From NCBI RefSeq assembly GCF_001724715.1, contig NZ_MEFG01000019.1, forward strand, positions 1 to 64,000: a stretch of 64,000 nucleotides of DNA, in the 5' to 3' direction. The position numbers were made by a program, and so were the translations under genes. The notes below the pieces were generated by a model that searched no databases, had not been told where the DNA came from, and was given only the letters and a program-made list of their open reading frames with translations. Below are positions 11,925-47,044 of the stretch, in pieces (position 1 is the first letter of the stretch; each line of letters opens with the position of its first letter). The DNA comes from Sphingomonas sp. SCN 67-18. GTDB lineage: Bacteria; Pseudomonadota; Alphaproteobacteria; Sphingomonadales; Sphingomonadaceae.

Positions 11925-12050
11925 CGCGCCAGCGACATTTTCGTCCCGGAAGCTTGGATTTTGCGGGCCGGAACGGCGTGCAGGGGTGGCATTGCCGATA
12001 CCCATGCGCTAGGGTGACGGCCATCAAACACACAGCCTGAAAGTCCTGCC

Positions 12051-14759
<2,709 letters not shown>

Positions 14760-26301: not shown

Positions 26302-27441
26302 TCACCGCGGTTCGCCGTGGGTCCGCACGGTTTCCCCTTCATGCGTTTCGCGGTCTTCGACCAGGTGGCCGAGGGCGCGGAGGGCGGGGGCGTCGGTTAC
26401 GGAATAGAGCACGGAATCCCGGCTGCCGTTGCGGTGGCTGTACCAGTGCCAGCCCGGAACGACGATCACGTCGTTGCGCTGCCAGTTGAGCTCCACGCCG
26501 CCGACCACGGTGGTGCCGCTGCCTTCCAGGCAGACGAAGATGCGGGAGGCCGTGCTGCGCTGCTCCAGCGTGCGTTCATTGGGGCGCAGCATCTGCATGT
26601 ACACGCCAAGCGTGCGCAGCACGCTGCCGCCCGTTTCCGGGCTGTAATATTCCACCATGATCCCGTCATGCGGCGATCCGTCGTCGTCGCGGAGCCGTTC
26701 CAGCAGCGCGCGGGTGGGTTCATATTTATAGAGGAAGCGCGGCGATCCGCTGCCCCGGGCAACGCGGTGAGACACCCAGTCCGGCCGCACGCCGCCGACG
26801 CCATAGGCATTGGCGGACCAGTCCGTGCGCGGCCTGACCGTCTGGAATTTCTTGGCGATGCGCTGGCCTTCCTCAATCTCCGCATAGTCGTTGAAGAAGA
26901 AATTGGTGCCGAGCATCTTGGTGAAGGGCACGTCCAGCGTGTCGAACCACATCACCGGATCGCTGCCCTCATTGCCGGTTTCATGCCATGCGCCGCTGGG
27001 GTTGGTGACGACGTCGCCGCGCTCCAGCACGCTCTTGTCGCGCTCCACCGTGGTGTAGGCGCCCGTCCCTTCAAGCATGACGCGGGTCGCCGCGCCGACA
27101 TGGCGGTGGACCTGCGACAATTCGCCCGGCGGGATGATCTGCACGCCGCCGAACAGCCGGCGCGTGATCAGCCCGCTGCCGGGCAGGCCGGGGTTTGAGA
27201 ACATCAGGTTGCGGCGGTCCGCCTCCTCGATGGGGATGATCTCGGTCGCGGCGAAACCCAGCGGCGAAAAGTCCGCGTAGCGCCAGATGCCGGGCTTTTC
27301 CGGCACATGCGGCTCGAACTGCTCGAAATCATGCTTGATCTTCCAGAATCCGACAATGTCCTGCTCGGCAAGCGCGCTGCTCAGCCCGTCCCGATCGGTG
27401 ATCTGGTCAGCCGCAACGGCCTTCATGATATTCGCGGACAT
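26302..27441 (-). CDS. Gentisate 1,2-dioxygenase-like bicupin
   Basis: A 379-residue two-cupin protein of the gentisate/1-hydroxy-2-naphthoate ring-cleaving dioxygenase family, which opens the aromatic ring between the carboxyl- and hydroxyl-bearing carbons using Fe(II) and O2. The N-terminal cupin retains the 3-His site: H112 and H114 (QVHRHVGAATR) and H153 (GAWHE). The C-terminal cupin lacks a comparable His pair and is probably structural. The start is set by GAGGAG 7 bases upstream of ATG 27441. It is the last gene of the minus operon hydrolase-transporter-dioxygenase; the exact aromatic substrate is unknown. Confidence 0.85.
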   Translation of the reverse strand: MSANIMKAVAADQITDRDGLSSALAEQDIVGFWKIKHDFEQFEPHVPEKPGIWRYADFSPLGFAATEIIPIEEADRRNLMFSNPGLPGSGLITRRLFGGVQIIPPGELSQVHRHVGAATRVMLEGTGAYTTVERDKSVLERGDVVTNPSGAWHETGNEGSDPVMWFDTLDVPFTKMLGTNFFFNDYAEIEEGQRIAKKFQTVRPRTDWSANAYGVGGVRPDWVSHRVARGSGSPRFLYKYEPTRALLERLRDDDGSPHDGIMVEYYSPETGGSVLRTLGVYMQMLRPNERTLEQRSTASRIFVCLEGSGTTVVGGVELNWQRNDVIVVPGWHWYSHRNGSRDSVLYSVTDAPALRALGHLVEDRETHEGETVRTHGEPR

Positions 27442-27491
27442 CGTCCAACTCCTCAGCTTCAAATAATAAAGTCACGCGCATCGCCGGCGCG

Positions 27492-28775
27492 CTATCCCTC
27501 TACCGGCCGGCGCGGCGCCATCAGCAGCGCGATCAGGCTGACGCCCCCGCATGCGGAGAGATAGAGACCAACGGGCAGCAATCCACCCCGTTCCGCCATG
27601 CTCTGCGCGAAAAACGGCGCCAGCGACCCGCCGGCGATCGCCCCCAGGTTGAACGCCATCGACGCGCCGGTGTAGCGCACCCGCGCCGGGAACAGGCTGG
27701 GCAGCCATGCGCCGAGCGGACCGTAAGCCAGACCCATGCACAGCAGCGCGACGGAAAGCTGGATGAACACCAGCCCCAGCGAGCCGCTGTCCATCAGCGG
27801 CTTCATCAGCGGCCCGGCGATCAACAGCGTGCCCAGGCATCCCCAGATCAGCACGGTGCGCTGGCTGAACCGATCAGAGAAAATGCCGGACAGGATGATG
27901 CCCACGGCCAGGAACACCGTCGCGCCAATCTGCGCGATCAGGAACTCGCTGCGCCCATAGCCGAGGGTCGTCGTGCCGTAACCCAGCAGGAAGGCGGTGG
28001 TGATGTAATAGATGGCGAAGCAGCAGATGCCGCCCAGCGTGCCGAACATCACGCCGGGCAAATGGTTGCGGAACACGCTGGCGATGGGCACCGCTTCCGG
28101 CGGCGCTTCCTTGAGCGCAGCCGCGAAGGCGGGTGTCTCGGTAAGTTTCAGCCGCACCCACAGGCCGATGATGACCAGAAAGGCGCTGCCCAGAAAGGGA
28201 ATGCGCCAGCCCCAATCCATCATCTGCTCCGCCGAAAGGCCCATGCCCAGCAGCAGGAACACGCCGTTGGCCGTGATGAAGCCGATCGGCGCGCCCAGCT
28301 GCGGCACCATGCCATAGCGTCCGCGCCAGCCATTTGGCGCATTCTCCACCGCCAGCAGCGCCGCGCCGCCCCATTCGCCGCCAAGCCCCAGGCCCTGGCC
28401 GAGGCGCAGGATGCAGAGCATCAGCGATGCGGTCCACCCGATATCCTCATAGGTGGGCAGGAAGGCGATGAAGAAGGTCGATCCGCCCATCAGCAGCAGA
28501 GATGCCACCAGCGTCGCCTTGCGGCCCACCCGGTCGCCGAAATGCCCGAACAGGATCGCGCCCACCGGCCGGGCGATGAAGGCGAGCGCCAGGCTGGCAT
28601 AGGCGGCCAGCAACTGCGCCGAGGGCGAGGATGCCGGGAAGAACAGCGGGCCGAAGAACAGGCTGGCGGCGGTCGCGTAGATGAAGAAATCGTAGAACTC
28701 CACCGATGTGCCGACCAGACTGGCCGTCAAAACCTTGCGCTGTTCCCGCCCCAGCGGCGCAACGTCATTGTGCAT
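27492..28775 (-). CDS. MFS transporter, metabolite:H+ symporter type
   Basis: A 427-residue, 12-helix inner-membrane importer. It shows the MFS signature after helix 2 (GHFGDRVGRKATLV), the RLGQGLGLGGEWGGAAL segment of the metabolite:H+ symporter subfamily (ShiA/PcaT/ProP relatives), and a second loop GIFSDRFSQRTVLIWG after helix 8. Subfamily members import dicarboxylates, shikimate, protocatechuate and other aromatic acids. Its place between a ring-cleavage dioxygenase-like gene and a fumarylacetoacetase-family gene (gaps about 50 bases each) suggests it imports the aromatic acid handled by them. Confidence 0.9.
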   Translation of the reverse strand: MHNDVAPLGREQRKVLTASLVGTSVEFYDFFIYATAASLFFGPLFFPASSPSAQLLAAYASLALAFIARPVGAILFGHFGDRVGRKATLVASLLLMGGSTFFIAFLPTYEDIGWTASLMLCILRLGQGLGLGGEWGGAALLAVENAPNGWRGRYGMVPQLGAPIGFITANGVFLLLGMGLSAEQMMDWGWRIPFLGSAFLVIIGLWVRLKLTETPAFAAALKEAPPEAVPIASVFRNHLPGVMFGTLGGICCFAIYYITTAFLLGYGTTTLGYGRSEFLIAQIGATVFLAVGIILSGIFSDRFSQRTVLIWGCLGTLLIAGPLMKPLMDSGSLGLVFIQLSVALLCMGLAYGPLGAWLPSLFPARVRYTGASMAFNLGAIAGGSLAPFFAQSMAERGGLLPVGLYLSACGGVSLIALLMAPRRPVEG

Positions 28776-28824: not shown

Positions 28825-29673
28825 CTAATCGAGAATGTTGCTCAGCCTCCCCAGGCCGTCGATCTCCACGGTCACACGGTCACCGCGCGACAGGTAACGG
28901 GGCGGCTTGAAACCGATGCCCACGCCCGCCGGCGTGCCGGTGGCGATGATGTCGCCCGGAAACAGCGTGATGCCGGCCGAAAGCGCCTCGATGAGCGTCG
29001 GAATGTCGAAAATCAGGTCGGACGTGTTGGCATCCTGCCGCAATTCGTCATTCACCCAGCAGCGGACGTTGAGATTTTCTACGTCCACCGCGTCCGCCGT
29101 GACCAGATACGGTCCCATCGGGCAGAAGGTGTCGAGCGATTTGCCGATCAGCCACTGTTTGTGGTCCGCCTGAAGATCGCGCGCCGTCATGTCGTTGACG
29201 ATCATATAGCCGAAGACATGGCTGTAGGCGTCCGCCTTGCGGATGCCGCGCCCGCCCTTGCCGATGACCAGCGCCAGCTCCGCCTCATAATCGATCTTGT
29301 CGCTGACGCCGGTGGGGTAGAGCATCGGCGCCTCGTTGGCGATCACGCAGTCGGGCAGCTTGGAAAAGATGATCGGCGCGGTCGGAATCGTCTCGCTCTC
29401 GTCCTTGGCGGAACTGTCGAAGCCGCTCTGGGTGAATTCCCTGGCGTGGGCGTGGTAATTCTTGCCGACGCAGAAGATGTTGCGTTCCGGCCGGGGGATC
29501 GGCGCCAGCAGCGATGCCGATGACAGCGGCACGCCTTCGCCCGAAACCTGCGGACGCGCGCCCGACCGGATCACCGACAGCATGTCGCTGCCCAGCGGAA
29601 AGGCCCTGCCCGCTTTCTCGTCGATGATCGCGGCGACGGCTGCGCCGTCCAGACTGATCGTTGCCAGCTTCAA
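28825..29673 (-). CDS. Fumarylacetoacetate hydrolase-family protein (maleyl/fumarylpyruvate hydrolase-like)
   Basis: A 282-residue enzyme of the FAH superfamily, which cleaves C-C bonds of beta-keto acids with a divalent metal. The metal and catalytic segments are present: VGKNYHAHARE, the acidic triad region in DYEAELALVIGKGG, and the C-terminal GDIIATGTPAGVG. With a gentisate-dioxygenase-like enzyme in the same operon, hydrolysis of maleylpyruvate or fumarylpyruvate to pyruvate is the simplest role. The start is TTG with GGGAG 6 bases upstream. First gene of the minus operon, with a sigma-54-type promoter about 190 bases upstream. Confidence 0.88.
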   Translation of the reverse strand: MKLATISLDGAAVAAIIDEKAGRAFPLGSDMLSVIRSGARPQVSGEGVPLSSASLLAPIPRPERNIFCVGKNYHAHAREFTQSGFDSSAKDESETIPTAPIIFSKLPDCVIANEAPMLYPTGVSDKIDYEAELALVIGKGGRGIRKADAYSHVFGYMIVNDMTARDLQADHKQWLIGKSLDTFCPMGPYLVTADAVDVENLNVRCWVNDELRQDANTSDLIFDIPTLIEALSAGITLFPGDIIATGTPAGVGIGFKPPRYLSRGDRVTVEIDGLGRLSNILD

Positions 29674-29862: not shown

Positions 29863-29878
29863 AGCACGGAACGTGCCA
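29863..29878 (-). promoter_or_regulatory. Sigma-54 (-24/-12) promoter for the hydrolase-MFS-dioxygenase operon
   Basis: On the minus strand TGGCACG-N4-GTGCT matches the TGGCACG-N4-TTGCW consensus except at one position of the -12 box; the invariant GG and GC dinucleotides have correct spacing. A UAS-like inverted repeat (29934-29947) lies 55 bases upstream of the -24 element. Expected transcription start is near 29851. Confidence 0.75.
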
Positions 29879-29933
29879 CGCCGCCGCCGCCCGGAAATGC
29901 GCTGATCGGCCACCCTGGCCGGCAAATATTGCT

Positions 29934-29987
29934 GTCACCTTTGTGAACCCGCCGCGCCAAAGAGGAGGCATAGGTAACAATTTTCCG
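29934..29987. promoter_or_regulatory. Paired upstream activator sites between divergent sigma-54 promoters
   Basis: GTCAC-CTTT-GTGAA at 29934-29947 and a degenerate GTAAC-AATT-TTCCG at 29974-29987 match the GTNAC-N4-GTNAC-type repeat found in two other intergenic regions of the cluster. They sit between two outward-facing sigma-54-type promoters, 55 bases from the minus one and 58 bases from the plus one. The likely ligand is the Fis-type HTH of the activator encoded at 38028-39779. Confidence 0.6.
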
Positions 29988-30325: not shown

Positions 30326-32116
30326 ATGAAGTTGCGCACAGCCGCCCTTTTCATTGCATGTTCCGCGCTTTCCACCGCTGCCATGGCGCAAGCGGGCAAG
30401 GCCCCCGCGGTCAACAAGCCGATCGCCCATAACGACCCCGGCCGCTCCGGCTGGAACCCGCTCGAGACCAAGCTGACCCCCGCCACCGTGGGCAGCGCCG
30501 ATTTCGGCCCGGTCTGGTCCTCGCCGCAGCTCGACAGTTTCGAGAACACGCCGCCGCGCCTGTTCTCGGCGCCGCTTTATCTGCAGTCGGTCAAGATGAC
30601 CGGCGGCGCGCATCGCGGCAAGACCTTCCCTGTTACCTTCGTCACCACCACCACCGGCTATGCCTATGCGATCAGCACGGCGGCGGTCGGCGGCGTTGCG
30701 CCCGGCACCATCCTGTGGCGCACCCGGCTTACCGAAACGCCGTGCAACAAGGGTACGCTCGGCAATTACGGCACCGGCGTCATCGACATGAAGGCCAACC
30801 GTTTCTACGTCACCAGCTGCAGCAGCGCGAGCGGCGAGAATCTGTGGAGCGCCCACGCGCTCGACCTGCGCAGCGGCCAGCAGCTTCCCGGCTGGCCGGT
30901 GGCGCTGAGCCAGGCGGTGATCGACCAGCCCTCGCTCAACCGCAACGGCAAGCGCACCTGGCAGCTGGGCAAGAAATATCGTTATGTCCAGCGCGGCGCG
31001 CTGGTGCTGAACGGCGACGGATCGCGCCTCTATCTCGCCTTCGGCGCGGACGCCGTGGGCTGGATGCTGGTGCTCGACGTGCCGAGCCGCAAGGTCGTCT
31101 CCGCCTTCTCGGCCACGCCCGACGACGTGCAGGACGGCGGCGGCATGTGGGCCCAGGGCGGCCCCGCGCTCGACGAGAAGGGCCGGCTCTACGTGTCCAC
31201 CGGGTCCAACCTGCAGGACGGCATCAACCTTGGCCTGGAGAGCATGCACCCGGACAAGCAGAACAACTGGTCCCACTCCATCCTGCAGTTCGAGGACAAC
31301 CGGACCAACGGCCTGACCCTGACCGGCAGCTACACCCCCTATAATTATTGCCAGGCGGGCAAGGCGGATATCGACATCGGCAGCAGCCCGGTGATCACCG
31401 TCAACCTGCCGGCCGGCACGTCGCAGACCACCAACCTGCTGGTTCTCGGCGGCGGCAAGCAGGGCGTCATCTACCTGCTCGACCGCGACAAGATGCCGGG
31501 CAGCCTGACCCAGCGCCAGGCCTGCGCGCTCGATCCGGCGACCGACCTGTCGCTGCTGGCGCCCGAACCGCAGCCCGAATGGAAGCGGCGCGGCCCGATC
31601 AGCCTGTTCAAGCCGTTTTCGGATGAATATGGCGCGTTCGACCAGGCCAAGAGCCGCACCTCCGCGTCCTATTATCGCGATGCGAAGGGAGACACCTACA
31701 TCTACGTCAGCGGCGCCAGCAAGAAGGGCGAGAATTTCAACACCAGCGCCCCGCCCAGCCTCGCCAAGGTGAAGGTGGTCGCCAGCCCCAACGCGCCGGC
31801 CCATCTGAAGGTCGACAAGCTGGAGATGAAGACCACGCTGCACAATGCCGGATCTCCGGTCATTTCCAGCAATGGCGGCAATGACGCGATCGTGTGGGTG
31901 GTGGACCAAAACGCCGCGCGCACCGTCAGCCTCTATGCCGCCAAGCCGCCCCAGCCCATCCTCTACGCGTTCGACGCGGTCACGCTCGACACGATCTGGA
32001 AGAGCCCGGAAGGCGAGCTGGCGACGACCGGCAACTACAGCGAAGTCACCGTCGCCAACGGGCAGGTGCTCGTCGGCACCGACCGCATCCAGGCCTATGG
32101 CCTGAAATCGAAGTAA
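30326..32116 (+). CDS. Exported quinoprotein-like beta-propeller protein
   Basis: A 596-residue protein with a signal peptide (MKLRTAALFIACSALSTAAMAQ). The mature part reads as a BamB/PQQ-enzyme-like beta-propeller with repeated blade elements such as TTGYAYAIS, GSRLYLAFGADAVGWML, LYVSTGSN, LVLGGGKQGVIYLLDRD and VLYAFDAVTLDTIW-like strands near the C-terminus. I cannot identify the vicinal Cys pair or the PQQ-binding acid set of true quinoprotein dehydrogenases, so catalytic activity is unproven. It is clearly paralogous to the minus-strand protein at 35912-37738 (shared SSPQLDSF, PRLFxAPLY and DIDIGSS blocks). First gene of an operon with three DUF1080 genes. Confidence 0.75.
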   Translation: MKLRTAALFIACSALSTAAMAQAGKAPAVNKPIAHNDPGRSGWNPLETKLTPATVGSADFGPVWSSPQLDSFENTPPRLFSAPLYLQSVKMTGGAHRGKTFPVTFVTTTTGYAYAISTAAVGGVAPGTILWRTRLTETPCNKGTLGNYGTGVIDMKANRFYVTSCSSASGENLWSAHALDLRSGQQLPGWPVALSQAVIDQPSLNRNGKRTWQLGKKYRYVQRGALVLNGDGSRLYLAFGADAVGWMLVLDVPSRKVVSAFSATPDDVQDGGGMWAQGGPALDEKGRLYVSTGSNLQDGINLGLESMHPDKQNNWSHSILQFEDNRTNGLTLTGSYTPYNYCQAGKADIDIGSSPVITVNLPAGTSQTTNLLVLGGGKQGVIYLLDRDKMPGSLTQRQACALDPATDLSLLAPEPQPEWKRRGPISLFKPFSDEYGAFDQAKSRTSASYYRDAKGDTYIYVSGASKKGENFNTSAPPSLAKVKVVASPNAPAHLKVDKLEMKTTLHNAGSPVISSNGGNDAIVWVVDQNAARTVSLYAAKPPQPILYAFDAVTLDTIWKSPEGELATTGNYSEVTVANGQVLVGTDRIQAYGLKSK

Positions 32117-32171
32117 TCCGTCCAGACAAGGCGCCGGCCCGCGCGGCCGGCGCCCAAGAAGGAGCCGCTTC

Positions 32172-32990
32172 ATGATCTTCCGCCGCCAGCGCCGCGCGCC
32201 GTTAGCCGCCCTCGCCCTGCTTGTTATCGGGATGGCGGCAGCGCCGCTCGCCGCCGAGCCGGCAGCGCCGCCCGGCTTCACATCGCTGTTCGACGGCAAG
32301 ACGCTGAACGGCTGGCGGGGCGACCCGGCGCTCTGGTCGGTGCGCGACGGCGTGATCGACGGCGGATCGGACGAGCCGGTCAAACATGCGACCTATCTGA
32401 TCCACGAAGGCAATTTCGCGGACTTCGAACTGCACTTCAAATATCGGTTCATCGCAGACGGCAATTCCGGTTTCCAGATCCGCAGCCGCGTAATCGACGA
32501 GGCCAAGTTCGACGTCGCCGGATACCAGGCCAATGTGGTGCCGCCCGGGCAGAATGTCCGTTTCGCCATGCTTTACGACATGGTCGGCCGCAGCGAGATC
32601 GCGCTGCTCAGCGAAAAGGTCGAGATTTCGGAAGAGAATGGCAAGGTCAAGCGGGTGATCAGCGGATCGGTGAACCCGATCCAAACCATCCTCAGCTCCT
32701 ACAAGCCCTATCCCGAATGGAACGACTATGTCGTCATCGCCTATGGCAACCGCATCATCCATGTCGTGAACGGCTATCTCGCCGTCGACGCGGTGGACCT
32801 CAATCCCGCCGGCGCCAGGGACGGGGTGCTCGCCCTCCAGCTCGATTTCGGATCGGCGATGCGGGTGCAGTTCAAGGACATCGCCGTCAAGCGGCTCACC
32901 GCCGCGCCGGACATAAGCGGCCGTTTCCAGACCATTGCCGGGCCGCCGCAGACCACGCCGGAAATCCCCCGCCGCCCGCCGCATAAATGA
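32172..32990 (+). CDS. Exported DUF1080 protein (3-keto-disaccharide hydrolase family), copy 1
   Basis: A 272-residue protein with a signal peptide ending near AAPLAA, followed by one concanavalin-like DUF1080 domain. Family landmarks are GFTSLFDGKTLNGWRG, the strand FELHFKYRF, NSGFQIRSR, YPEWNDYVVIAYGNR and IHVVNGYLAVD. Characterised members of this Pfam family act on 3-keto-glycosides, cleaving the glycosidic bond after C3 oxidation of the sugar. AAGGAG precedes the ATG by 8 bases. It is 55 bases behind the beta-propeller gene and 46 bases ahead of copy 2. Substrate is unknown. Confidence 0.88.
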   Translation: MIFRRQRRAPLAALALLVIGMAAAPLAAEPAAPPGFTSLFDGKTLNGWRGDPALWSVRDGVIDGGSDEPVKHATYLIHEGNFADFELHFKYRFIADGNSGFQIRSRVIDEAKFDVAGYQANVVPPGQNVRFAMLYDMVGRSEIALLSEKVEISEENGKVKRVISGSVNPIQTILSSYKPYPEWNDYVVIAYGNRIIHVVNGYLAVDAVDLNPAGARDGVLALQLDFGSAMRVQFKDIAVKRLTAAPDISGRFQTIAGPPQTTPEIPRRPPHK

Positions 32991-33036
32991 CAATTTACCG
33001 CGCCCGCACCTGCCGGCGCATGAGAGGAAGAACGAC

Positions 33037-33906
33037 ATGACTATCCGCCACAAGGCCTTTTGGACGATCGCCGGGTCCGCGATCGCCATCGCTTTGGCTC
33101 CCGCAGCCCTCCATGCCCAGGCAGCGCCCGTGCCCGAAGGCTTCACCGCGCTGTTCGACGGCAAGACGCTCAACGGCTGGCACGGCAACACCAAGGTCTG
33201 GCGGGTCGAGGACGGCGCGATCACCGGCGGCACCGAAAGCCCGATCGATGCCAACACCTTCCTGATTTACGAACGCCCCTATGGCGATTTCGAGGTCCGC
33301 TTCAAATATCGCTGGCAGACGCCGGAAGGGAATAGCGGCTTCCAGTTCCGCAGCGGCCAGATGGAGGGCGATTACGTCCTCACCGGGCTGCAGGCGAACG
33401 TAACCCCCATAGACGTGCCGCCGGATCGTTACGGAATGCTCTACAATGAAACCGGCGACCGGCAGGAAATGGTGATGCTGGGTCAGCGCGCGGAGATCAC
33501 CCGGCGCAGCGCCAACGGCATGGGCACCGGGCGCGTCGTCCGCACCGTGAAGGAAATGGTCAACGACCGCGCCGCCATCCTGAAAACGATCAAGCCCTAC
33601 CCCGAATGGAACGAGGTGGTGCTGATCGCCTATGGCAACCACATGGTCTCGGCCATCAACGGCATGCTGGCCTTCGACGCGCTGGACAATGATCCGGTCG
33701 GCAAGCGGGACGGCCTGTTCGGCCTGCAAGCCCACAAGGGCCCAGTGATGAAGGTCCAGTTCAAGGACATCGTCGTCAAGCCGCTGACCGCCGCGCCCGA
33801 CCTGGAAGGGCGCTTCAAGAGCACGGTCAGCCCGGCGCCGGAACCGAGGCAAACCTACAAGGATTCGACGCGCGCCGCGATGCCGGACGTCGCCCTGCCC
33901 CAATAA
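33037..33906 (+). CDS. Exported DUF1080 protein, copy 2
   Basis: A 289-residue paralogue of copy 1 with its own signal peptide (cleavage near ALHAQ) and a complete DUF1080 domain: GFTALFDGKTLNGWHG, FEVRFKYRWQ, NSGFQFRSGQ, a YGMLYNETGDRQEM block, and YPEWNEVVLIAYGNH. It has a C-terminal extension (YKDSTRAAMPDVALPQ) also seen in the minus-strand copy (YKDSTKVNLPD), so these two are probably the closest relatives. The start at 33037 is chosen for the signal peptide and a GAGAGGAAG site. Third gene of the plus operon. Confidence 0.88.
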   Translation: MTIRHKAFWTIAGSAIAIALAPAALHAQAAPVPEGFTALFDGKTLNGWHGNTKVWRVEDGAITGGTESPIDANTFLIYERPYGDFEVRFKYRWQTPEGNSGFQFRSGQMEGDYVLTGLQANVTPIDVPPDRYGMLYNETGDRQEMVMLGQRAEITRRSANGMGTGRVVRTVKEMVNDRAAILKTIKPYPEWNEVVLIAYGNHMVSAINGMLAFDALDNDPVGKRDGLFGLQAHKGPVMKVQFKDIVVKPLTAAPDLEGRFKSTVSPAPEPRQTYKDSTRAAMPDVALPQ

Positions 33907-34002
33907 TCATCCGCGCCCGTCGCCGCGCCCCGGCGCGCTGGCGGGCACTTCCCCCGGCACCGGCAACAGCCGGGCCGACATAAGTTGCAAGGAGAGTAGT
34001 TC

Positions 34003-34885
34003 ATGACCCCCCGGACCTTTCGGAAACGCTGCCTGAGGGCGATCGCGATGACGGCGGCAATCGCCGCCGCCCTGCCCGCCGCAGCCCAGGCAGCCGACGC
34101 GCCGGCCCCGGTGCCCGCCGGCTTCACCTCGCTGTTCGACGGCAAGACGCTGAACGGCTGGCGTACGCGACGGCGCCATCACCGCCAGCTCGGCGGAAGG
34201 ATTGAAATACAACACCTTCCTGATCCTCGATAAGCCCTATACGGATTTCGAGATCCGCTTCAAATATCGCTTCGCCACGGCGCAGGGCAATTCGGGCCTG
34301 CAGATCCGCAGCGGCCAGACCGACGGCAATTACGTGCTGGGCGGCATGCAGGCGAACATCATTCCCGCCAATTTCACCGATTGCGGCCTGCCTTCCTGCG
34401 GCGAGGAACGCTTCGGCATGCTCTATGAGGAACTGAACCGGCTGGAGCTGGTGCTGCTGGGCCAGAAGGCGACGATCACGCGCCGCCAGTCCAAGACCGG
34501 CGGCCCCGGCCAGGTCGTCCGCACAATCACGGGTACGACCAATTCGCGCGCGGACATCATCAAGGCCGTGAAGCCTTACCCGGAATGGAACGAGGATATC
34601 GTGATCGCCCATGGCAATCGCATCATCCACATCATCAACGGCTATGTCGCTTTCGACGCCACGGACAATGACCCGCTGCGCACGATGAGCGGGCTGATCG
34701 GCATCCAGGCCCATGCCGGCCCGCCCAGCACGATGCAGTTCAAGGATTTCGTGATCAAGCCGCTGACGGCGATGCCGGACATTGCGAGCCGCTTCATCAG
34801 CAAGCCGGAAACGGCGGCGGAGCCGGAGCGCGTCTATCGCACCATCGAGTTGAAGACCGAAGCCGGTCCTTACGTGGCGCCCTGA
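34003..34885 (+). pseudogene. DUF1080 protein gene, copy 3, disrupted by a small deletion/frameshift
   Basis: The first part (from 34003) encodes a signal peptide and GFTSLFDGKTLNGWR, then runs out of frame to a stop at 34233. The other frame picks up at VRDGAITASSAEGLKYNTF around 34163 and continues intact to 34885. Compared with copies 1, 2 and 4, about seven residues plus two bases (roughly 23 nt) are missing exactly between NGWR and VRDG. An internal start at 34202 would give 227 residues without a signal peptide. A natural deletion is likelier than a base-calling error because a multi-base block is absent. Confidence 0.75.
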
Positions 34886-34910
34886 CCTCCACCGGTGGTG
34901 GAATGGTCCA

Positions 34911-34947
34911 CGGCCCGCGAAGCTGGTGCTTCGCGGGCCGTTTTTTT
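34911..34947 (+). terminator. Rho-independent terminator ending the plus DUF1080 operon
   Basis: Perfect 13-base stem (34911-34923 with 34928-34940), TGGT loop, followed by seven T residues. It lies in the 82-base gap where the two mirrored operons converge. Confidence 0.95.
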
Positions 34948-34967
34948 AAACCATCACACTGGCGGGA

Positions 34968-35849
34968 TCATTCGGGATCGTTGACCAGCGTGTCCGGCAG
35001 GTTGACCTTGGTCGAATCCTTGTAGGACACGATCGGCGTGTTGAGCGTGACCGGCTTGGTGATGAACCGGCCGGTGATGTCCGGGAAGCTCGTCAGCGGC
35101 TTGATGACGATGTCCTTCATCTGGATCCACATCGCCGGCCCCTTGTGGACCTGGATGCCGATCAGGCCGTCCTTCAGGCTCATCGGATCATTGTCGGTGG
35201 CGTCGAACGCCATATAGCCGTTGATCGCATAGACCATGCGGTTGCCATGGACGATCAGCACATGCTCGTTCCAGCCCGGCGCCGGATTCACCTTGCTGAG
35301 AATCTCGGTGCGGTCGTTGACCATGCCGGTCACGGTGCGCACGATGCGCCCCTGTCCGCCGCCTGCCGCCTGGGCGCGGGTGATGGTGGCCTTCTGGCCC
35401 AGCAGCACCATTTCCTGCTTCTCGCCGATTTCGTCATAAAGCATGGCGAAACGCTCGCGTGACTTGGGCAGCGGCGTGATGTTCGCCTGCGGTCCGGCCA
35501 TGAAGAAATTACCGCCAATGTCGCCGCTGCGGAACTGCAGGCCGGAATTGCCGACTTCCTCCAGGAAGCGATATTTGAAGCGGATCTCGAAGTTCGCATA
35601 AGGCTTGTTCAGGATCAGATAGGTGTTCTTGTCGATCGGCTTATCCGAACCGCCGGTGATGGCGCCGTCGCGCACGGAGAACACGGTGGGGTCGCCGCGC
35701 CAGCCGTTCAGCGTGGTGCCGTCGAACAGCGAGGTGAAGCCGGCGGGCACGGGGGCCTGCTGGGCATAAGCCGGCGCCAGCGGGCTGGCCATGATCGCAA
35801 GAAACGTCAAATATCGCATGGTGGTCTTGCTACGAACCCTGGCTGTCAT
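34968..35849 (-). CDS. Exported DUF1080 protein, copy 4
   Basis: A 293-residue protein with a signal peptide (MRYLTFLAIMASPLAPAYAQ core, preceded by a basic stretch) and a full DUF1080 domain: GFTSLFDGTTLNGWRG, FEIRFKYRF, NSGLQFRSGD, ERFAMLYDEIGEKQEMVLLG-like block, and the C-terminal YKDSTKVNLPD also present in copy 2. ATG 35849 has GGGAG/AAGGAA directly upstream; an in-frame ATG at 35864 precedes it. It is 62 bases downstream of the second beta-propeller gene, the same order as on the plus strand. Confidence 0.88.
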   Translation of the reverse strand: MTARVRSKTTMRYLTFLAIMASPLAPAYAQQAPVPAGFTSLFDGTTLNGWRGDPTVFSVRDGAITGGSDKPIDKNTYLILNKPYANFEIRFKYRFLEEVGNSGLQFRSGDIGGNFFMAGPQANITPLPKSRERFAMLYDEIGEKQEMVLLGQKATITRAQAAGGGQGRIVRTVTGMVNDRTEILSKVNPAPGWNEHVLIVHGNRMVYAINGYMAFDATDNDPMSLKDGLIGIQVHKGPAMWIQMKDIVIKPLTSFPDITGRFITKPVTLNTPIVSYKDSTKVNLPDTLVNDPE

Positions 35850-35911
35850 TTCCTTCTCCCTCATCGGTTTGATACTGTCGTGGTCCCTGCTCTTGCGGCA
35901 GAATAGCGGCC

Positions 35912-37738
35912 CTAATCGTTGCGCAGGCCGAACGCCTGCAGCCTGTCCGTGCCGACCAGCGCAATGCCGTCGGCCACCGTCGCCTCATTATATTTGCCCG
36001 ACGTGAACAGCTCCCCTTCCGGGTTTTTCCAGAGCAGCTTGAAGCTGAGCGCGTCGAACGCGTAGAGCACCGGCTTGGGCGCGGCATCGCCGTAGAGATT
36101 GGCAGTGCGCGGCGCGTTGTTGTCCAGCACCCAAACGATCGCATCCTTGCCGCCATTGCTGGTGATCACCGGCGATCCGGGGTTCTTGAAGGTCTGCGTT
36201 TCCTCAAGCCCGTCGACGCGCAGGAAAGCGGGCTTGCCAGGGTTGGTCACCACCTTCACCCGGGCGAGACCGGGAGGCGCGTCGAGGGTCAGGTTCTCGC
36301 CGATCTTCTTGCTGCCGCTGACATAGAGATAGCTCGTGCCCCTGGCATCGCGGAAATAGGCGGCGGTACTGCGGCTCTTTGCCTGGTCGAACGCGCCCAG
36401 ATTGTCGGAATAGGGCTTGAACAGGTTGATCGGCCCGGGCTTGCCGAATTCAGGCTGCACGTCCGGCGCCAGCAGCGACTTGTCCGTGGTGGAATCGTCG
36501 CTGCACGGCTGGCGCCTGGTGAGGCCGCCGGGCATGTGATCGCGGTCCAGCAGGTAGATATTGCCCTGCTTGCCGCCGCCCAGCGTCAGCAGGCGCCGGG
36601 TGCTGCTGGTGCCCGCCGGCAGGTCGAACGCGACCACGCCGCTGCTGCCGATGTCGATGTCCGTCTTGGACGCCTGGCAGTAGTTGAACGGCGTGTAGGT
36701 GCCGGTCAGCGTCAGGCCGCGCTCGCGGTCGTCGGCGAACTGGAGGATCGATTGCCCCCATGCGCCGTCGCATTCCGGGCATACGCCCTCAAGCCCGTAC
36801 AGGCGGCCGGGGATCAGGTTCGCGCCCGACGACACGTGAATGCGGTCGTCGGCGTCGATCGCGGGGCCGCTGGACGCCCAGAAGCCGCCCTGTTCCTGCT
36901 GGTTGGCCTGGATGGAGGAAAAGGCCGTGGCGACCTTGGCGGTCTGCGTGTCGACCGCGATCAGCCAGCCCACGCCGTCCGGCCCGAAGGCCAGGTACAG
37001 GCGCGATCCGTCCCCGTTCAGGTTCAGCGCCCCGCGCTGGGTGTAGCATGGGGTGCGGCACACCGCGCGCTTGCCGTCCGACGAAAATCCGTTCTTGTCG
37101 TCCGTCTCGGCAACCCATTTGGTATCGCCGTTCCGGTTCATCCCCGGCTGGTTCATCGTCTCCGCGTCGATCTTGACCGGCCAGCCGGGCACGTCCTGCC
37201 CGCTGCGGATGTCGAGCGCGTGCACCTGCCACTGCGGCTCGCTGCAGCTCGTCACATAAAGGCGGCCGGTTTTCGGGTCGATGATCGGCGTGCTCAGGTT
37301 GCCCTGCGCGCCCTTGGTGCACGGATTGTCCGTCAGCCGCGTCCGCCACAGGATGGTGCCCGGCTGGACGCCGTTGGCGGCCGCGGCGGCGATGGCATAG
37401 GCATAGCCGGTGGTGGTGACGACGAAGGCGACCGGGAAGCTCTTCCCGGCATGATCGCCGCCCTCCATGGTCACCGACTTCATGTAGAGCGGCGCGGCGA
37501 ACAGGCGCGGCGGCATGCCGTTGAAGCTGTCCAGTTGCGGCGAGGACCAGATCTGGCCGAACTTGCCGCTCGCCACATTCTGCGGCGTCAGGCGGCTTTC
37601 ATGGTCGTTCCACCCGGTCCGCTGGGCATCGTTATGATAAGTGAGCTTGTCGACCGGAGAGGTTGGTACGCTCTGGGCATAACCGTTGGTGGAAATCGCC
37701 GCCAGGACGGTGAATACGCTTACAGCCCAAAGCTTCAT
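35912..37738 (-). CDS. Exported quinoprotein-like beta-propeller protein, second copy
   Basis: A 608-residue paralogue of the protein at 30326-32116. The start at 37738 gives a proper signal peptide (MKLWAVSVFTVLAAISTNGYAQ); the frame is open much further upstream but that part is not protein-like. Blade motifs include TTGYAYAIAAA, GRLYVTSCS, SRLYLAFGPDGVGWLIAVD, LTLGGGKQGNIYLLDRDHM and VLYAFDALSFKLLW. Unlike the first copy it has an extra Cys-containing insert (AVCRTPCYTQRG) and a CPECDG loop, possibly disulfides. It heads the minus operon with DUF1080 copy 4. A PQQ cofactor is possible but not shown. Confidence 0.75.
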   Translation of the reverse strand: MKLWAVSVFTVLAAISTNGYAQSVPTSPVDKLTYHNDAQRTGWNDHESRLTPQNVASGKFGQIWSSPQLDSFNGMPPRLFAAPLYMKSVTMEGGDHAGKSFPVAFVVTTTGYAYAIAAAAANGVQPGTILWRTRLTDNPCTKGAQGNLSTPIIDPKTGRLYVTSCSEPQWQVHALDIRSGQDVPGWPVKIDAETMNQPGMNRNGDTKWVAETDDKNGFSSDGKRAVCRTPCYTQRGALNLNGDGSRLYLAFGPDGVGWLIAVDTQTAKVATAFSSIQANQQEQGGFWASSGPAIDADDRIHVSSGANLIPGRLYGLEGVCPECDGAWGQSILQFADDRERGLTLTGTYTPFNYCQASKTDIDIGSSGVVAFDLPAGTSSTRRLLTLGGGKQGNIYLLDRDHMPGGLTRRQPCSDDSTTDKSLLAPDVQPEFGKPGPINLFKPYSDNLGAFDQAKSRSTAAYFRDARGTSYLYVSGSKKIGENLTLDAPPGLARVKVVTNPGKPAFLRVDGLEETQTFKNPGSPVITSNGGKDAIVWVLDNNAPRTANLYGDAAPKPVLYAFDALSFKLLWKNPEGELFTSGKYNEATVADGIALVGTDRLQAFGLRND

Positions 37739-38027: not shown

Positions 38028-39779
38028 ATGCATAGCATCGTCCGGAACCTCACGAAGAGCGCGAAGCAGAACGGATCGCCCATCCTCGCCGTCTCGGCGG
38101 GGTCGGGCCAGATCGCCCAATATGCGGTCGAAGCCGGTGCCGACCTGCTGCTCGCGCTGAACGCTGGCCTGTATCGCAGCCTGGGCCATGGCTCGCTGGC
38201 CTCCCTGCTCGCTTATGGCAATGCCAACGACCAGACCGAAGAGCTGCTGCGCCGCCATATCCTGCCCAATGCCGGCGGATTGCCGGTGGTCGCCGGGGTG
38301 ATGGCCAGCGATCCGGGGATCGAGCTGGATCACCGCCTCGCCCACCTGAAGCGGCTGGGCGTGCACGGCGTGACCAACTGGCCGACAGTGGGTTTCATAG
38401 ACGGCAAGATCCGCGATGCATTCGAGGAGGACGGCTACGGCCTGTCGACCGAGATCGAACTGCTCAGCCGCGCCCGCCAGCAGGGCATGGCCACCTTCGC
38501 CTTCGTGCTGAACGTGGAGGATCTGCGGCGTTTCGCGGCCGCCGGCGTGGACGCCTATATCATTAACGCGGGGCTGACGCCTCAGCAGTTCGCGCTGGGC
38601 GACCGGCGGGACATGCTGCAGGATTCGCTGATCCACATCAACCGCATGGTGGCGGCGCTGGACTCCTCTGCGGGGCGGCCGCTGTGCCTCAGCTATGGCG
38701 GCCCTTTCACCGACGTGGAGGATTTCGGCACGCTGTTCCGCCAGGCCAAGGTGGACGGCATCGCCGGTGGTTCGGTGTTCGAGCGCCTGCCGGTGCAGGC
38801 CATCACTTCCAACTTCGTGCGCCGCTGCAAGGCGCTGCGCATCGGCAACCCCGATCTCAGCGGCGCGGGGCGGCCGGAGATATTGGGCCAATCCGCCGCG
38901 TTTCTCGACATGGTGACGACGATCGAGCGGGTCGCGCCGTTCGACGCCAATGTCGTCATCGAAGGGGAAACCGGCGTCGGCAAGGAATTGGCCGCAAGCC
39001 TGATCCACGAGCTCAGCCCCCGCTCCGCGCAGCCCTTCATCACCCTGAACTGCGGCGCCATCCCGTCCGGGTTGCTCGAAAGCGAGCTGTTCGGCCATGA
39101 ACGCGGATCGTTCACCGGCGCGGACCGGCGGCGGATCGGCAAGTTCGAGCTTGCCAACCGGGGCACGCTGCTGCTCGACGAAATCGCCGATCTCAGCCCG
39201 GCGGCGCAGGTGGCGCTGCTCCGCGTGCTCCAGCAGCGCGAGGTGGTTCGCGTCGGCGCGGACAAGCCCATCCCGCTCAACGTGCGCGTCATCGCCGCGA
39301 CCAACCGATCGCTGGCCGATCTGGTGCGGGAGGGGAAATTCCGCTCCGACCTTTATTATCGCCTCAGCACCGTCACGCTCAGCATCCCGCCGCTCAGGGA
39401 AAGGCTGGACGATCTGCCGGTGCTGGTCGGCGCGTTCCTGCAGAAAACGGCGGCGGAACTGGGCATCCCCGCCCTCTCCGTCGACGAGCATTTCGAAGAG
39501 GAGATGGCGCGCCATAGCTGGCCCGGCAATATCCGCGAATTGCTGCAGGTCATCTCGCGCGCCGCCATCCTCGAGGACGGGCCGATTTTGCGCGGGCTGC
39601 ACTTCCACCCGGACAGCGGACCCAGACCGTATATTTCCGGCAACGCGCAGGCGCGCCGGGTCAGCGTGGAGGATATCCACCGGGCGATCGAGCGGGCCGG
39701 CGGAAACAAGAGCGTCGCCGCCGCCGCGCTGAAGATCAGCCGGAAAACCCTTTACGCGAAACTGGATGCGCATCCCTGA
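38028..39779 (+). CDS. Sigma-54-dependent activator with N-terminal PEP-hydrolase-like TIM-barrel sensor
   Basis: A 583-residue bacterial enhancer-binding protein. Residues about 15-275 form a TIM-barrel domain of the phosphoenolpyruvate-hydrolase family, alignable with the enzyme at 41252-42091 (shared GADLLL, [14 protein letters not shown], PTVGxIDG, YGGP/HGGP and SxxERLP blocks). Residues about 290-530 are the AAA+ domain: Walker A GETGVGKE (313-320), sigma-54 contact loop GSFTGA (360-365), LLLDEIADL as Walker B. The last ~40 residues are a Fis-type HTH (KSVAAAALKISRKTLYAKL). The barrel replaces the usual GAF/PAS/receiver sensor. It probably activates the four -24/-12 promoters of the cluster. 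Confidence 0.9.
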   Translation: MHSIVRNLTKSAKQNGSPILAVSAGSGQIAQYAVEAGADLLLALNAGLYRSLGHGSLASLLAYGNANDQTEELLRRHILPNAGGLPVVAGVMASDPGIELDHRLAHLKRLGVHGVTNWPTVGFIDGKIRDAFEEDGYGLSTEIELLSRARQQGMATFAFVLNVEDLRRFAAAGVDAYIINAGLTPQQFALGDRRDMLQDSLIHINRMVAALDSSAGRPLCLSYGGPFTDVEDFGTLFRQAKVDGIAGGSVFERLPVQAITSNFVRRCKALRIGNPDLSGAGRPEILGQSAAFLDMVTTIERVAPFDANVVIEGETGVGKELAASLIHELSPRSAQPFITLNCGAIPSGLLESELFGHERGSFTGADRRRIGKFELANRGTLLLDEIADLSPAAQVALLRVLQQREVVRVGADKPIPLNVRVIAATNRSLADLVREGKFRSDLYYRLSTVTLSIPPLRERLDDLPVLVGAFLQKTAAELGIPALSVDEHFEEEMARHSWPGNIRELLQVISRAAILEDGPILRGLHFHPDSGPRPYISGNAQARRVSVEDIHRAIERAGGNKSVAAAALKISRKTLYAKLDAHP

Positions 39780-39874
39780 TGCAAGGCGGCGGGACGGGCC
39801 TGTCGATGCCCGCCCCGCCAATCGCCGGGCGCCTGAAATGGATTGTCACCTTCAAGCCGGCATCGGGCACTGCG

Positions 39875-39888
39875 GTAACAAAAGTTAC
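39875..39888. promoter_or_regulatory. Upstream activator site, perfect inverted repeat GTAAC-AAAA-GTTAC
   Basis: Perfect 14-base palindrome in the intergenic region between the activator gene and the Tm-1-like operon, 55 bases upstream of the -24 box at 39944. A second half-site (GTCAC-CTTC) starts at 39845, 30 bases further upstream, about three helical turns, consistent with cooperative binding of activator dimers. Confidence 0.65.
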
Positions 39889-39943: not shown

Positions 39944-39959
39944 TGGCATGGTCCGTGCA
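39944..39959 (+). promoter_or_regulatory. Sigma-54 (-24/-12) promoter for the Tm-1-like/PEP-hydrolase/ThuA operon
   Basis: TGGCATG-N4-GTGCA with one mismatch in each box and correct GG-GC spacing. Predicted start near 39970, 36 bases before the first gene of the operon. Confidence 0.7.
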
Positions 39960-40005: not shown

Positions 40006-41226
40006 ATGGGCAATCTGGCACCAGTTTACGTTTTCGCCACGCTGGACACCAAGCTTGAAGAAGCGAATTTCCTTGCAGAAGCGATGCGGGGCGAAGGCGT
40101 TCCCGCCGTCCTGATCGACGTCGGCACCTTGAACCCCCCGATGGCGGAACCGGGCATCGACCGGAAGACCGTCGCCTCATTCCATCCCGACGGCGTCGAT
40201 GCCGTGCTTGGCCTCAACGATCGCGGCGCCGCCGTGACCGCGATGAGCCGCGCGCTGCGCAGCTTCATGGTCGACGCCTATCGCGCCGGCCGCTGCTCCG
40301 GCGCCATCGGCCTTGGCGGCACCGGCGGCACGGCGATGATCGCCACCGCCATGCGCGGCCTGCCGATCGGCTTTCCCAAGCTGATGGTCTCAACCGTCGC
40401 GAGCGGCGACACCAGCAGCTATATCGGCACCAGCGACATCACCATGATGTTCTCCGTCGTCGACGTCGCCGGCCTGAACCGCGTGTCGCGCCAGATCTAT
40501 CGCAACGCCGCAGCTGCCATTGCGGGCATGGCCCGCCTCGAAGCGCGCGACAATGACAGCCAGCGCGCCGTGGGCATGACCATGTTCGGCGTCACCACCC
40601 CCTGCGTCACCGCGGTGCGCGAAACGCTGGAAAAGGACGGGCTCGACATCCTGGTCTTCCACGCCACCGGCGTCGGCGGCCGCGCCATGGAGGAACTGGC
40701 CGGCAGCAACATGCTGGACGGCGTGATCGACGTGACGACCACGGAAGTGGCCGACGAGGTGGTGGGCGGCGTGTTCGCCTGCGGCCCGGCGCGCTTCGAC
40801 GTCATGCTGGAACGGCGGATGCCCTATGTCCTCTCGCTCGGCGCGCTGGACATGGTCAATTTCGGCCCGGTCGACAGCGTCCCGGAGAAGTTCCGCAACC
40901 GCAAGCTCCATGTCCACAACAGCAGCGTCACGCTGATGCGGACGAATGTGGAGGAAAATATCGCCTTCGCTCAGTGGATCGCGCGCAAGCTGAACGCTCA
41001 TCCCGAAAGCGGCTTCACGCTGCTCATCCCCGAAGGCGGGGTTTCCGAACTCGACAAGCCCGGCAACCCCTTCCACGACGTGGAAGCCGACCAGGCCTTG
41101 TTTACCGAGATAGAAAAAGCGGTGATCCAGGGACCGAACCGCAAGATCGTGCGCTATCCGCATCATATCAACGACCCTGCTTTCGCAGCCGCTTTAGTCG
41201 CTGAGTTCAATAACATCACACGATAA
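40006..41226 (+). CDS. Tm-1-like ATP-binding domain protein (UPF0261)
   Basis: A 406-residue cytosolic protein of UPF0261, named after the tomato resistance protein Tm-1. It shows the N-terminal [17 protein letters not shown] strand-helix, a Gly-rich nucleotide-binding region ([14 protein letters not shown]), [17 protein letters not shown], and a second Rossmann-like half with [14 protein letters not shown] and the C-terminal LLIPEGGVS. Biochemical function is not established for bacterial members. In Tm-1 this domain is fused to a C-terminal PEP-hydrolase-like barrel; here the matching barrel is the next gene, 25 bases downstream, which supports a two-subunit enzyme. Confidence 0.9.
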
Positions 41227-41251
41227 TAAGTATTTTATATTTGGAGGCTCC

Positions 41252-42091
41252 ATGCGCTGGAAACGTGAGGAAATTGTTGCACGGTTTCGTAAGAAGATTG
41301 CGGAACGCAGGCCGATTGTAGGAAGCGGCGCGGGCACCGGCATTTCTGCGAAATGTGCCGAACAGGGCGGCGCGGACCTCCTGATCATCTACAATAGCGG
41401 CCGGTTCCGCATGGCGGGCCGCGGCTCGCTCAGCGGCCTGCTCGCTTATGGCAACGCCAACGACATCGTTCTGGAAATGGGCAAGGAAATCCTGTCCATC
41501 GTCGAGGACACGCCCGTGCTGGCCGGTGTGAACGGCACCGATCCCTTCCTGCTGACCGACCGCTTCCTGCGCGAGATCACGGAAATGGGCTTTGCCGGGG
41601 TGCAGAATTTCCCGACCGTCGGCCTGATCGACGGATCCTTCCGGCTCAGCCTTGAGGAAACGGGCATGAGCTACAGCAAGGAGATCGATCTGATCGCGGC
41701 CGCCAACGCCGCCGACCTGCTGACCACGCCCTATGTGTTCGACGTCGAACAGGCGCGCCAGATGACCCGCGCGGGCGCGGATATCGTCGTCGCCCATATG
41801 GGCCTGACCACCGGCGGGCAGATCGGCGCCAAGACCTCGATGAGCCTCGACCAGGCGGCCAAGCTGGTCAACGAGATCATCGACGCTGCGCGCGGCGAGC
41901 GTTCCGACGTCATCGTCCTGTGCCATGGCGGCCCGATTTCCTCGCCGGCCGACGTCAAGGTGATGCTTGAAGCCTGCCCCACCGTGGACGGTTTCTACGG
42001 CGCGACCTCCATGGAGCGCCTGCCCGCCGAAACCGCGATCACCGAGCAGGTGCGGACTTTCGCCAGCCTTTCACTGAAGGGAAAATCATGA
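41252..42091 (+). CDS. Phosphoenolpyruvate hydrolase-family TIM-barrel enzyme
   Basis: A 279-residue single-domain TIM barrel of the PEP_hydrolase family. Notable blocks are [21 protein letters not shown] near the N-terminus (with a Cys the regulator lacks), [41 protein letters not shown] and [11 protein letters not shown] at the C-terminal phosphate-type loop. The reaction is not established for the family. TGGAGG lies 4 bases before the ATG. The stop overlaps the ThuA-cupin start by four bases. It is the enzyme-like paralogue of the N-terminal domain of the sigma-54 activator at 38028. Confidence 0.88.
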
Positions 42092-43377
42092 CCAATTGCC
42101 AGCCCCCCCGGCAGCCTGTCTTGGTGACGCGTTCGCGCGTCACCAAGATTTTTACTGCAATGGCCGTCAGCCTCTTCGCGATCAGCGGCACGGCAGCCAT
42201 GGCCGCCCAGCCGACGATCGTCCTGATCGGCGGGATGAAGCCGGGGCAGCCGGTTGGCGAACATGATTATCCCGATGGCGTTCTGAAGATCGAACGCCTG
42301 ATCAAGGCATCGCCCGATTTCGCGAAGCTCAACCCGGTCGTGAAGGCTTTCCCGATCGGTTTTCCGAAGAACCTGGCGGAGCTGGACGACGCCAGCGTCA
42401 TCCTCTTTTACTTCGGTACGGATCGCGGCCCCAATGGCAGCACCAACCCGCTCGAGGACCCGTCGATCAAGCAGCATCTGACGACGCTGATGGATCGCGG
42501 CGTCGGGCTGGTGGCGCTCCACCAGTCCTTCACCCTGCCGAGCAAGACCAGCGCGGCCGCCAAGCCGTTCCAGGACTGGCTCGGCGCTTCGCGGGTCGCG
42601 GTGACCGATTATTCCATGGAAGCCGCGCCGCTGACCGTTACCGCCAAGACCCACCCGGTCGCCAATGGCGTGAGCGATTTCAACTATCTGGACGAATTTT
42701 ATTCGGCGATCGACTTCGCGCCGAAGGTTAATCCGATCCTCAGCGCGCGCACCCATGTGCAATACACCACCGGCGGCAAGCCTGTGTTCCAGGACCCCGC
42801 CAAGGACCGCGTGATCGCGTGGACGCATGAGCGGGCCAATGGCGGCCGGGCTTTCGGCTTCGGCGGCGGGCATTATCTCGCCAGCTTCGACCAGCCGCAG
42901 GTCCGCAAAATGGTGCTGAACGCCATATTGTGGGCCGCCAAGGCGGACGTGCCGCAGGGCGGCGTGAACACCACCATCCCCTACACCCGGCAACCTGGTG
43001 AACCGCCCCAGGCGCAACCGGCTTACCGCGTCGTCCTGCGCGCCAACGAGGTGAAGCCCGAGCCGCAGTCCTGGGGCATGCTGAAGTGGTTCGCATCGCG
43101 GGCGCTGGGCAACTCGACGAAAATGACCACCGGCGAAGCCACCGTGGCCGTCGGCAAGGCCAATCCGGTGCACTGGCACCCGAACACGGATGAAGTCCTG
43201 CACGTCGTCAGCGGTCACATCATGCACCGCGTCGGCGATCAGGAATATGAAATGCGCGCCGGGGACACCGTCGTCATCCCCGAAGGGACCCGGCACAACG
43301 CGCGCAATATCGGCACGGAAGATGCCGTACTGGCGATCTCGTTTAACTCGGCGGATCGCTATACTATCGGTGAGTAG
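42088..43377 (+). CDS. Exported ThuA-domain/cupin fusion protein
   Basis: A 429-residue protein with an N-terminal signal peptide (hydrophobic [17 protein letters not shown]). Residues about 45-290 form a ThuA-like glutamine-amidotransferase-fold domain ([36 protein letters not shown]). ThuA proteins belong to trehalose/3-keto-sugar metabolism. Residues about 325-420 form a complete single cupin with metal-ligand-type [11 protein letters not shown] and GTRHNARN. This fusion and its export are unusual: characterised ThuA is cytosolic. Its start overlaps the PEP-hydrolase-like gene, so it is translationally coupled to two cytosolic proteins. Last gene of the operon. Confidence 0.85.
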
Positions 43378-43538: not shown

Positions 43539-43549
43539 TGGAGGGGAAT

Positions 43550-46576: not shown

Positions 46577-47044
46577 ATGAAGAATCTGTCTGCTCTCGCG
46601 CTCACCGCGCTCATCGCTGCAGTATCAAGCGTAATCTGTGCCCGCTTGCAGATCCCGGTGTGGATCATGTTCATCGGCTGGATCGGCTTCATCGCCGGCG
46701 GAGCGCAGGCCAAGACGGCCCTTCCCACCTATGTCAGCGTCATCCTGGGCGCGATCCTGGGCGGCGGCGGCGCGCTGATCATCTCCAGCGGCGGAGAGGG
46801 GCTTGGCGACCTGTTCCTGTTGATCGGCGTTTTCGTGATCGTGCTGGTGGCGCTGCTGGCGCAGTTCATACCCTTTGCCAACGCGGTCATCGGCTATTTC
46901 GTGGGCATGACGACATTCTTCGCATCCGGCCTGCCCATCCAGATGTCGACCTGGATCATCATCGCCGCCGGCATCGGCATCGGCATCGCGTCTGGCCTGG
47001 GGGCAAGCCTGCTGTCGGCGCGACTGACCAGGGCAAATGCATAA
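46577..47044 (+). CDS. DUF1097-family integral membrane protein
   Basis: A 155-residue inner-membrane protein with about five hydrophobic helices and very few charged residues, matching the DUF1097 (YcdZ-like) family: PVWIMFIGWIGFIAGG, VILGAILGGGGALI, ANAVIGYFVGMTTFFA and a Gly-rich last helix. Function is unknown; related small proteins are sometimes found beside transport systems. It follows the receptor gene by about 100 bases and precedes two cytochrome c genes. AAGGA lies 12 bases upstream of the start. Confidence 0.82.
   Translation: MKNLSALALTALIAAVSSVICARLQIPVWIMFIGWIGFIAGGAQAKTALPTYVSVILGAILGGGGALIISSGGEGLGDLFLLIGVFVIVLVALLAQFIPFANAVIGYFVGMTTFFASGLPIQMSTWIIIAAGIGIGIASGLGASLLSARLTRANA

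Follow-up and report, generated by a model that had tools for sequence, protein, structure and literature searches.

Bacterial breakdown of glycosides that begins with oxidation of the sugar appears to be widespread, and few types of dehydrogenase are known for it. In Caulobacter, a DUF1080 protein has been proposed to act after LacABC oxidizes lactose at C3 in the periplasm, and the genes lie side by side (PMC9007349). The beta-elimination clusters of Agrobacterium (AtOGE; PMC10628242) follow the same logic of oxidation and then elimination on plant glycosides, although elimination there is carried out by a Mn-dependent TIM-barrel enzyme. Here we analyze a window of 64,000 nucleotides from Sphingomonas sp. 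SCN 67-18 (NZ_MEFG01000019.1; contig C19 of this 3.22 Mb genome, G000), in which genes for two beta-propeller proteins (P1 and P2) and four DUF1080 proteins (D1 to D4) form a mirror image. The system is best read as a variant on the LacABC-DUF1080 route, with the propeller as a candidate new dehydrogenase. It differs from that route in having no PF13618 gene, in a propeller and cytochrome c instead of the dehydrogenase, in sigma54-type control, and in duplicated, convergent modules.

The mirror-image arrangement is real, and one of its four DUF1080 copies is broken. P1, D1, D2, and D3 on the plus strand and D4 and P2 on the minus strand converge on a hairpin at 34910-34947:

30326-32116, plus strand: P1, exported beta-propeller protein of 596 amino acids (open reading frame and signal peptide read from the sequence)
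32172-32990, plus strand: D1, DUF1080 (PF06439) protein with Asp at the putative catalytic His position (Pfam 120 bits versus 26.8; QLD motif; own clade, 100/100)
33037-33906, plus strand: D2, DUF1080 protein with the putative catalytic His (Pfam 119 bits; model at a predicted local distance difference test, pLDDT, of 75)
34003-34885, plus strand: D3, DUF1080 pseudogene (frame translations; DNA alignment with the intact S. colocasiae copy)
34910-34947, plus direction only: terminator-like hairpin with a 14 bp stem (34910-34941) and a T-run to 34947
34968-35864, minus strand: D4, DUF1080 protein with the putative catalytic His (Pfam 104.5 bits; QVH motif)
35912-37738, minus strand: P2, second propeller, with two extra Cys pairs (CRTPC, CPEC); 59% identical to P1, and 77% to its S. 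colocasiae orthologue

An earlier note on this DNA had described two converging blocks around a terminator, with three DUF1080 copies on one side and one on the other. The coordinates and the PF06439 scores of D1 to D4 (82-120 bits, far over the curated Pfam cut-off of 26.8) bear out the blocks and the four copies, whereas the T-run serves the plus direction only and the third plus-strand copy is broken. At 59% identity, P1 and P2 are the products of duplication and not a chance resemblance. In D3, alignment to the intact gene of Sphingomonas colocasiae places a loss of 23 bp between 34162 and 34163, which shifts the frame and leaves the signal peptide and N-terminus (start 34003) in a different frame from the remainder of the protein; the missing 23 bp rule out both an intact gene and a one-base sequencing slip. 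Because the rest of the frame is open, and the ratio of nonsynonymous to synonymous substitution (dN/dS) against S. colocasiae resembles that of neighboring genes, the break looks recent, or may be an assembly fault.

The pairing of the two families extends beyond the window. P1 has four close homologues and several distant ones; close propellers occur in 4 of 397 genomes of the family sample and 1 of 196 of the order sample, and matches in the rest of the class are only distant. The four propeller genomes are the window genome, which has two further propellers on its contig C7, S. colocasiae (G763, locus L014), a metagenome-assembled genome (MAG; G784, L015 and L032), and a genome of a fourth genus (G627, L031). 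Every propeller in these genomes has a DUF1080 gene no more than a few kb away, and 17 of their 19 DUF1080 genes sit in propeller clusters, the exceptions being on contigs C13 and C4 of the window genome. Of 199 family genomes, 34 have a DUF1080 score over the cut-off, most of these lacking a close propeller; G512 and G469, whose propellers are distant ones, lack DUF1080 altogether. The presence of a close propeller thus implies DUF1080, and not the reverse. Plasmid relatives of the propeller were rejected as part of this pairing, being only 23-28% identical, with the two inspected lying away from DUF1080 genes. This synteny survey agrees with the suggestion of the earlier note that the paired proteins form a functional unit, and we consider it highly probable that propeller and DUF1080 act together.

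The DUF1080 proteins resemble enzymes of known structure. The D2 model matches 4jqt (VIA Z 20.3), 9fbe (18.9), and 8tda (18.1), with Z values of 18-20 when 8rr2 is included; among the matches are structures of 3-keto-glycoside eliminases/hydratases and of 3-keto-2-hydroxy-glucal hydratase. The window proteins have the fold of this family (8rr2, 9fbe, 8tda, 8v31; BT2157; VIA Z about 18-19), and their D2, D3, and D4 types carry the His of the QDHG motif, which is putatively catalytic; at this position 8rr2 and 9fbe differ in sequence, 9fbe, a complex with the glycal, having Asn. They differ from the family in forming several tandem subtypes, in their association with a propeller, and in the Asp that replaces the His in the D1 types, for which reason D1 probably has another role.

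Such chemistry would follow an oxidation. The LacABC-type small subunit, PF13618, has no match in the genomes of the window or of S. colocasiae, so another dehydrogenase is needed there; in G627 and G784, PF13618 matches are found elsewhere in the genome. The obvious candidate, judging from gene content and domain fusions, is the propeller together with cytochrome c. A CxxCH cytochrome c is fused to three of the eight propellers (twice on C7, once in G627), and the clusters of the window and of S. colocasiae encode it separately, unfused. The two propeller-cytochrome c genes of C7 (L016 9225-11354 and L017 2475-4574) are 81% identical, and each is followed by a TonB receptor gene and DUF1080 genes; this pair is a second, duplicated version of the propeller-DUF1080 system. 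In G627, a compact cluster comprises the regulator, UPF0261, TIM-barrel, ThuA, and DUF1080 genes, the propeller with its fused cytochrome c, and a TonB receptor.

The propellers carry marks of a distinct subfamily, namely four Cys common to P1 and P2 (P1 140, 165, 342, and 400) and an insertion near residues 392-445, and seven close propellers share 183 invariant positions, many of them charged. The AlphaFold model, from a five-sequence input, is of low confidence (pLDDT 47.7) and suggests an 8-bladed, BamB/PQQ-like fold; distant relatives point the same way, through PQQ_2 matches or annotation as PQQ-binding-like. Foldseek returned assorted propellers for this model, including cytochrome cd1 nitrite reductases, and VIA-align returned designed propellers and BamB; dehydrogenases dependent on pyrroloquinoline quinone (PQQ) are not among the structural matches listed, which, for so poor a model, is not evidence against them. 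The likeness to PQQ-binding-like and quinohemoprotein propellers thus consists of this low-confidence fold, weak PQQ_2 similarity by way of distant relatives (only one, L035, passes the cut-off), and the cytochrome c fusion of the sister proteins; the insertion, scores under the Pfam PQQ cut-offs, and the absence of a PqqE gene set P1 and P2 apart.

In the system that we propose, the mirror-image block would form the core, located in the periplasm, of a catabolic cluster under sigma54 control. A glycoside would enter through the TonB receptor and its sugar would be oxidized, most likely at C3, by P1 or P2, each with a different substrate; electrons would pass from the propeller to a c-type cytochrome, encoded separately here and present as a fused C-terminal domain in the sister clusters; and D2 and D4, with D1 in a changed role, would eliminate and/or hydrate the 3-keto-glycoside and release the aglycone. 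For the whole, that is, sigma54-controlled periplasmic oxidative cleavage of glycosides with the propeller as cytochrome-linked dehydrogenase and DUF1080 as eliminase/hydratase, we see an even chance. The more specific proposal is tentative, and stands somewhat below even: that the propellers are cytochrome-c-linked glycoside (C3) dehydrogenases of a new class, based on neither flavin adenine dinucleotide (FAD) nor nicotinamide adenine dinucleotide (NAD), dedicated to DUF1080, and deployed in two substrate-specific modules under one sigma54-type activator with a PEP-hydrolase-like TIM barrel as sensor. A propeller-cytochrome protein strictly tied to DUF1080 is a testable candidate for a missing type of dehydrogenase.

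Several points weigh against this proposal. P1 and P2 have no Pfam PQQ domain over the cut-off, and comparison with PDB sequences gave no match better than E 0.78, on which grounds a direct assignment as PQQ enzymes was rejected. The propeller model is too poor for the cofactor site to be mapped on it. No pqqE scores over the cut-off in the four propeller genomes (the same PqqE model is positive in 32 of 190 alphaproteobacterial genomes), so that PQQ would have to be scavenged or a different cofactor used. The redox role of the propeller, like the substrate and the oxidation at C3, is something that we infer. The promoter and half-site patterns described below were refined after the sites had been inspected, which weakens their statistics, although relatives support the patterns independently. 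Finally, the stretches read in G627 and C7 did not show the gentisate-type operon described below.

Part of this evidence would also suit a propeller that is a non-catalytic, BamB-like binding protein or scaffold, bringing the glycoside from the TonB receptor to the DUF1080 proteins, with the oxidase encoded elsewhere in the genome: BamB ranks high among the structures that match the low-confidence model, PqqE is missing, the genes for propeller and TonB receptor are direct neighbors in C7 and G627, and distant relatives are annotated merely as PQQ-binding-like. We regard a scaffold as unlikely, though deserving of attention, given the cytochrome c fusions, the fact that neither the window genome nor that of S. 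colocasiae has a PF13618-type subunit, and the many charged residues among the invariant positions. The fusions are likewise hard to account for if the propeller is a lyase that splits the oxidized (or unoxidized) glycoside and DUF1080 proteins only hydrate the glycal product. Elimination and hydration are indeed separate steps in one studied pathway (PMC10628242), and hydratases are among the solved DUF1080 proteins, but 8rr2 and 9fbe are titled eliminase/hydratase, and DUF1080 may do both steps; a lyase seems rather improbable.

A propeller acting as a cytochrome-linked dehydrogenase would belong to a cluster with its own regulator. A fusion of a TIM barrel to a sigma54 activator is encoded in all four clusters (the window, L014, L015, and L060) and is absent from the 29 other alphaproteobacterial TIM loci surveyed for the GAFTGA motif and its variants. 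The activator has a PF00158 domain, and a GSFTGA loop can be read in the translation of 38028-39779, with the motif also present in L014, L015, and L060. Its TIM barrel is kin of the protein encoded at 41252, a catabolic-type domain that is apparently used here as a sensor. A standard sigma70 promoter scan found no site. A pattern, TGGCAYRNNCNRTGCW, was compared with the -24/-12 consensus of sigma54 promoters, to which it is close, and it lies in the correct direction before all four transcription units of the cluster; TGTYAC half-sites mark candidate activator-binding regions:

29863-29878, minus strand: sigma54 -24/-12-like site TGGCACGTTCCGTGCT before the FAAH operon
29933-29979: half-sites (29933, 29974), candidate activator-binding region between FAAH and P1
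30046-30061, plus strand: sigma54-like site TGGCACAGTCCATGCT before P1
37880-37895, minus strand: sigma54-like site TGGCACGGCCTGTGCA before P2
37949-37993: half-sites (37949, 37958, 37967, 37988), candidate activator-binding region between P2 and the regulator
39844-39880: half-sites (39844, 39875), candidate activator-binding region before UPF0261
39944-39959, plus strand: sigma54-like site TGGCATGGTCCGTGCA before the UPF0261 operon

The window contains four sites of the TGGCAYRNNCNRTGCW type, compared with a mean of 0.08 in shuffled sequences, and the whole genome contains six. The fifth (C13, L018 14426) lies 390 bases before a TonB receptor gene (9908-14036) that adjoins a DUF1080 gene, so this DUF1080-receptor pair is probably part of the regulon; the sixth is at G000:C14:78655-78670. 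Eight of the 15 TGTYAC half-sites of the window fall in the three control regions (0.27 expected), and similar repeats are present in relatives. The mirror image is therefore two separately promoted operons, probably under one activator, which, from these sequence patterns, would use the sigma54-like sites and the candidate half-sites. Conservation of the cluster, together with an activator and promoter sites of its own, offers a way to find the substrate.

The cluster spans approximately 26.3 to 47.4 kb of the window (about 21 kb), and its gene order is kept in S. colocasiae. Outside the mirror-image block, it comprises:

26302-27462, minus strand: gentisate-1,2-dioxygenase-like cupin (under the equivalog cut-off)
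27492-28775, minus strand: major facilitator superfamily (MFS) metabolite/H+ symporter
28825-29673, minus strand: FAA-hydrolase family protein (Pfam; PDB relatives)
38028-39779, plus strand: regulator with a PEP-hydrolase-like TIM barrel, sigma54 AAA domain, and Fis helix-turn-helix (Pfam)
40006-41226, plus strand: UPF0261 protein
41252-42091, plus strand: PEP-hydrolase-like TIM-barrel protein
42088-43377, plus strand: exported protein with ThuA domain and cupin
43547-46480, plus strand: TonB-dependent receptor
46577-47044, plus strand: DUF1097 membrane protein (order conserved in S. colocasiae)
47110-47436, plus strand: exported monoheme cytochrome c (CTVCH)

The aglycone may be a gentisate-type phenol here, which the MFS carrier would import for cleavage by the dioxygenase and the FAA hydrolase. 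These same genes, lying within the putative regulon, could be taken to mean that the cluster oxidizes phenolic compounds and not sugars, with the DUF1080 proteins as carbohydrate-binding or ordinary hydrolytic accessories, and CBM66 has the DUF1080 fold too. We judge this improbable: propeller, DUF1080, and receptor persist together in the C7 clusters and in the compact one of G627, where the stretches read contain no aromatic genes, and the putative catalytic His is kept in most DUF1080 copies. Pairs of UPF0261 and TIM-barrel genes (here 40006-42091) are also found beside several alphaproteobacterial TIM loci without close propellers.

The copies in the mirror image are old. In the propeller tree, P1 (window, S. 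colocasiae, MAG) and P2 (window, S. colocasiae) each form a distinct group with good support, and the C7 and G627 proteins belong to neither. In the DUF1080 tree, the D1 types (window, S. colocasiae, C7) are supported at 100/100 and the D3 types (window, S. colocasiae, MAG, C7) at 98/96; the D2 and D4 types are less resolved, and each window copy is closest to its S. colocasiae counterpart. The copies are thus related groups of paralogues and not unrelated lineages, and the duplications predate the split between the window organism and S. colocasiae, each of P1, P2, and the main DUF1080 subtypes having a counterpart there. A local three-fold expansion on one side, as the earlier note had it, was rejected in view of the age of these subtypes, the deep, separate lineage of D1, and the pseudogene state of D3; the DUF1080 genes in tandem represent differentiated subtypes of long standing and not recent redundant copies. 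Specialization of the propellers, in turn, is supported by P1 and P2 being diverged subtypes that are both kept in two species. The Cys-containing inserts once held to distinguish them are only partly so: CRTPC of P2 adjoins a 16-residue insert, while CPEC is a substitution with no insert, and the four Cys above are shared; both extra pairs also occur in the S. colocasiae P2.

The C-terminal YKDST of D2 and D4, which had been read as a mark of inversion, is an ancestral tail, Y[KR]D being present in 11 of 19 related DUF1080 proteins, and it was excluded as evidence of that history. That duplication preceded inversion is nonetheless plausible from the MAG, in which one P1-type propeller (two contig ends appear to be halves of a single gene) is followed by five DUF1080 genes in the same direction and then an FAA hydrolase gene, so that an inversion separates the convergent layout of the window and S. 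colocasiae from that of the MAG; the MAG DUF1080 proteins are poorly resolved in the tree, and the direction of change is unrooted. The regulator gene is itself inverted in S. colocasiae (L014 17569-19359) relative to the window and the MAG. One of the five tandem DUF1080 genes of the MAG (mag_c, in L032 1254-3019) appears frameshifted, possibly an error, on a low-coverage contig.

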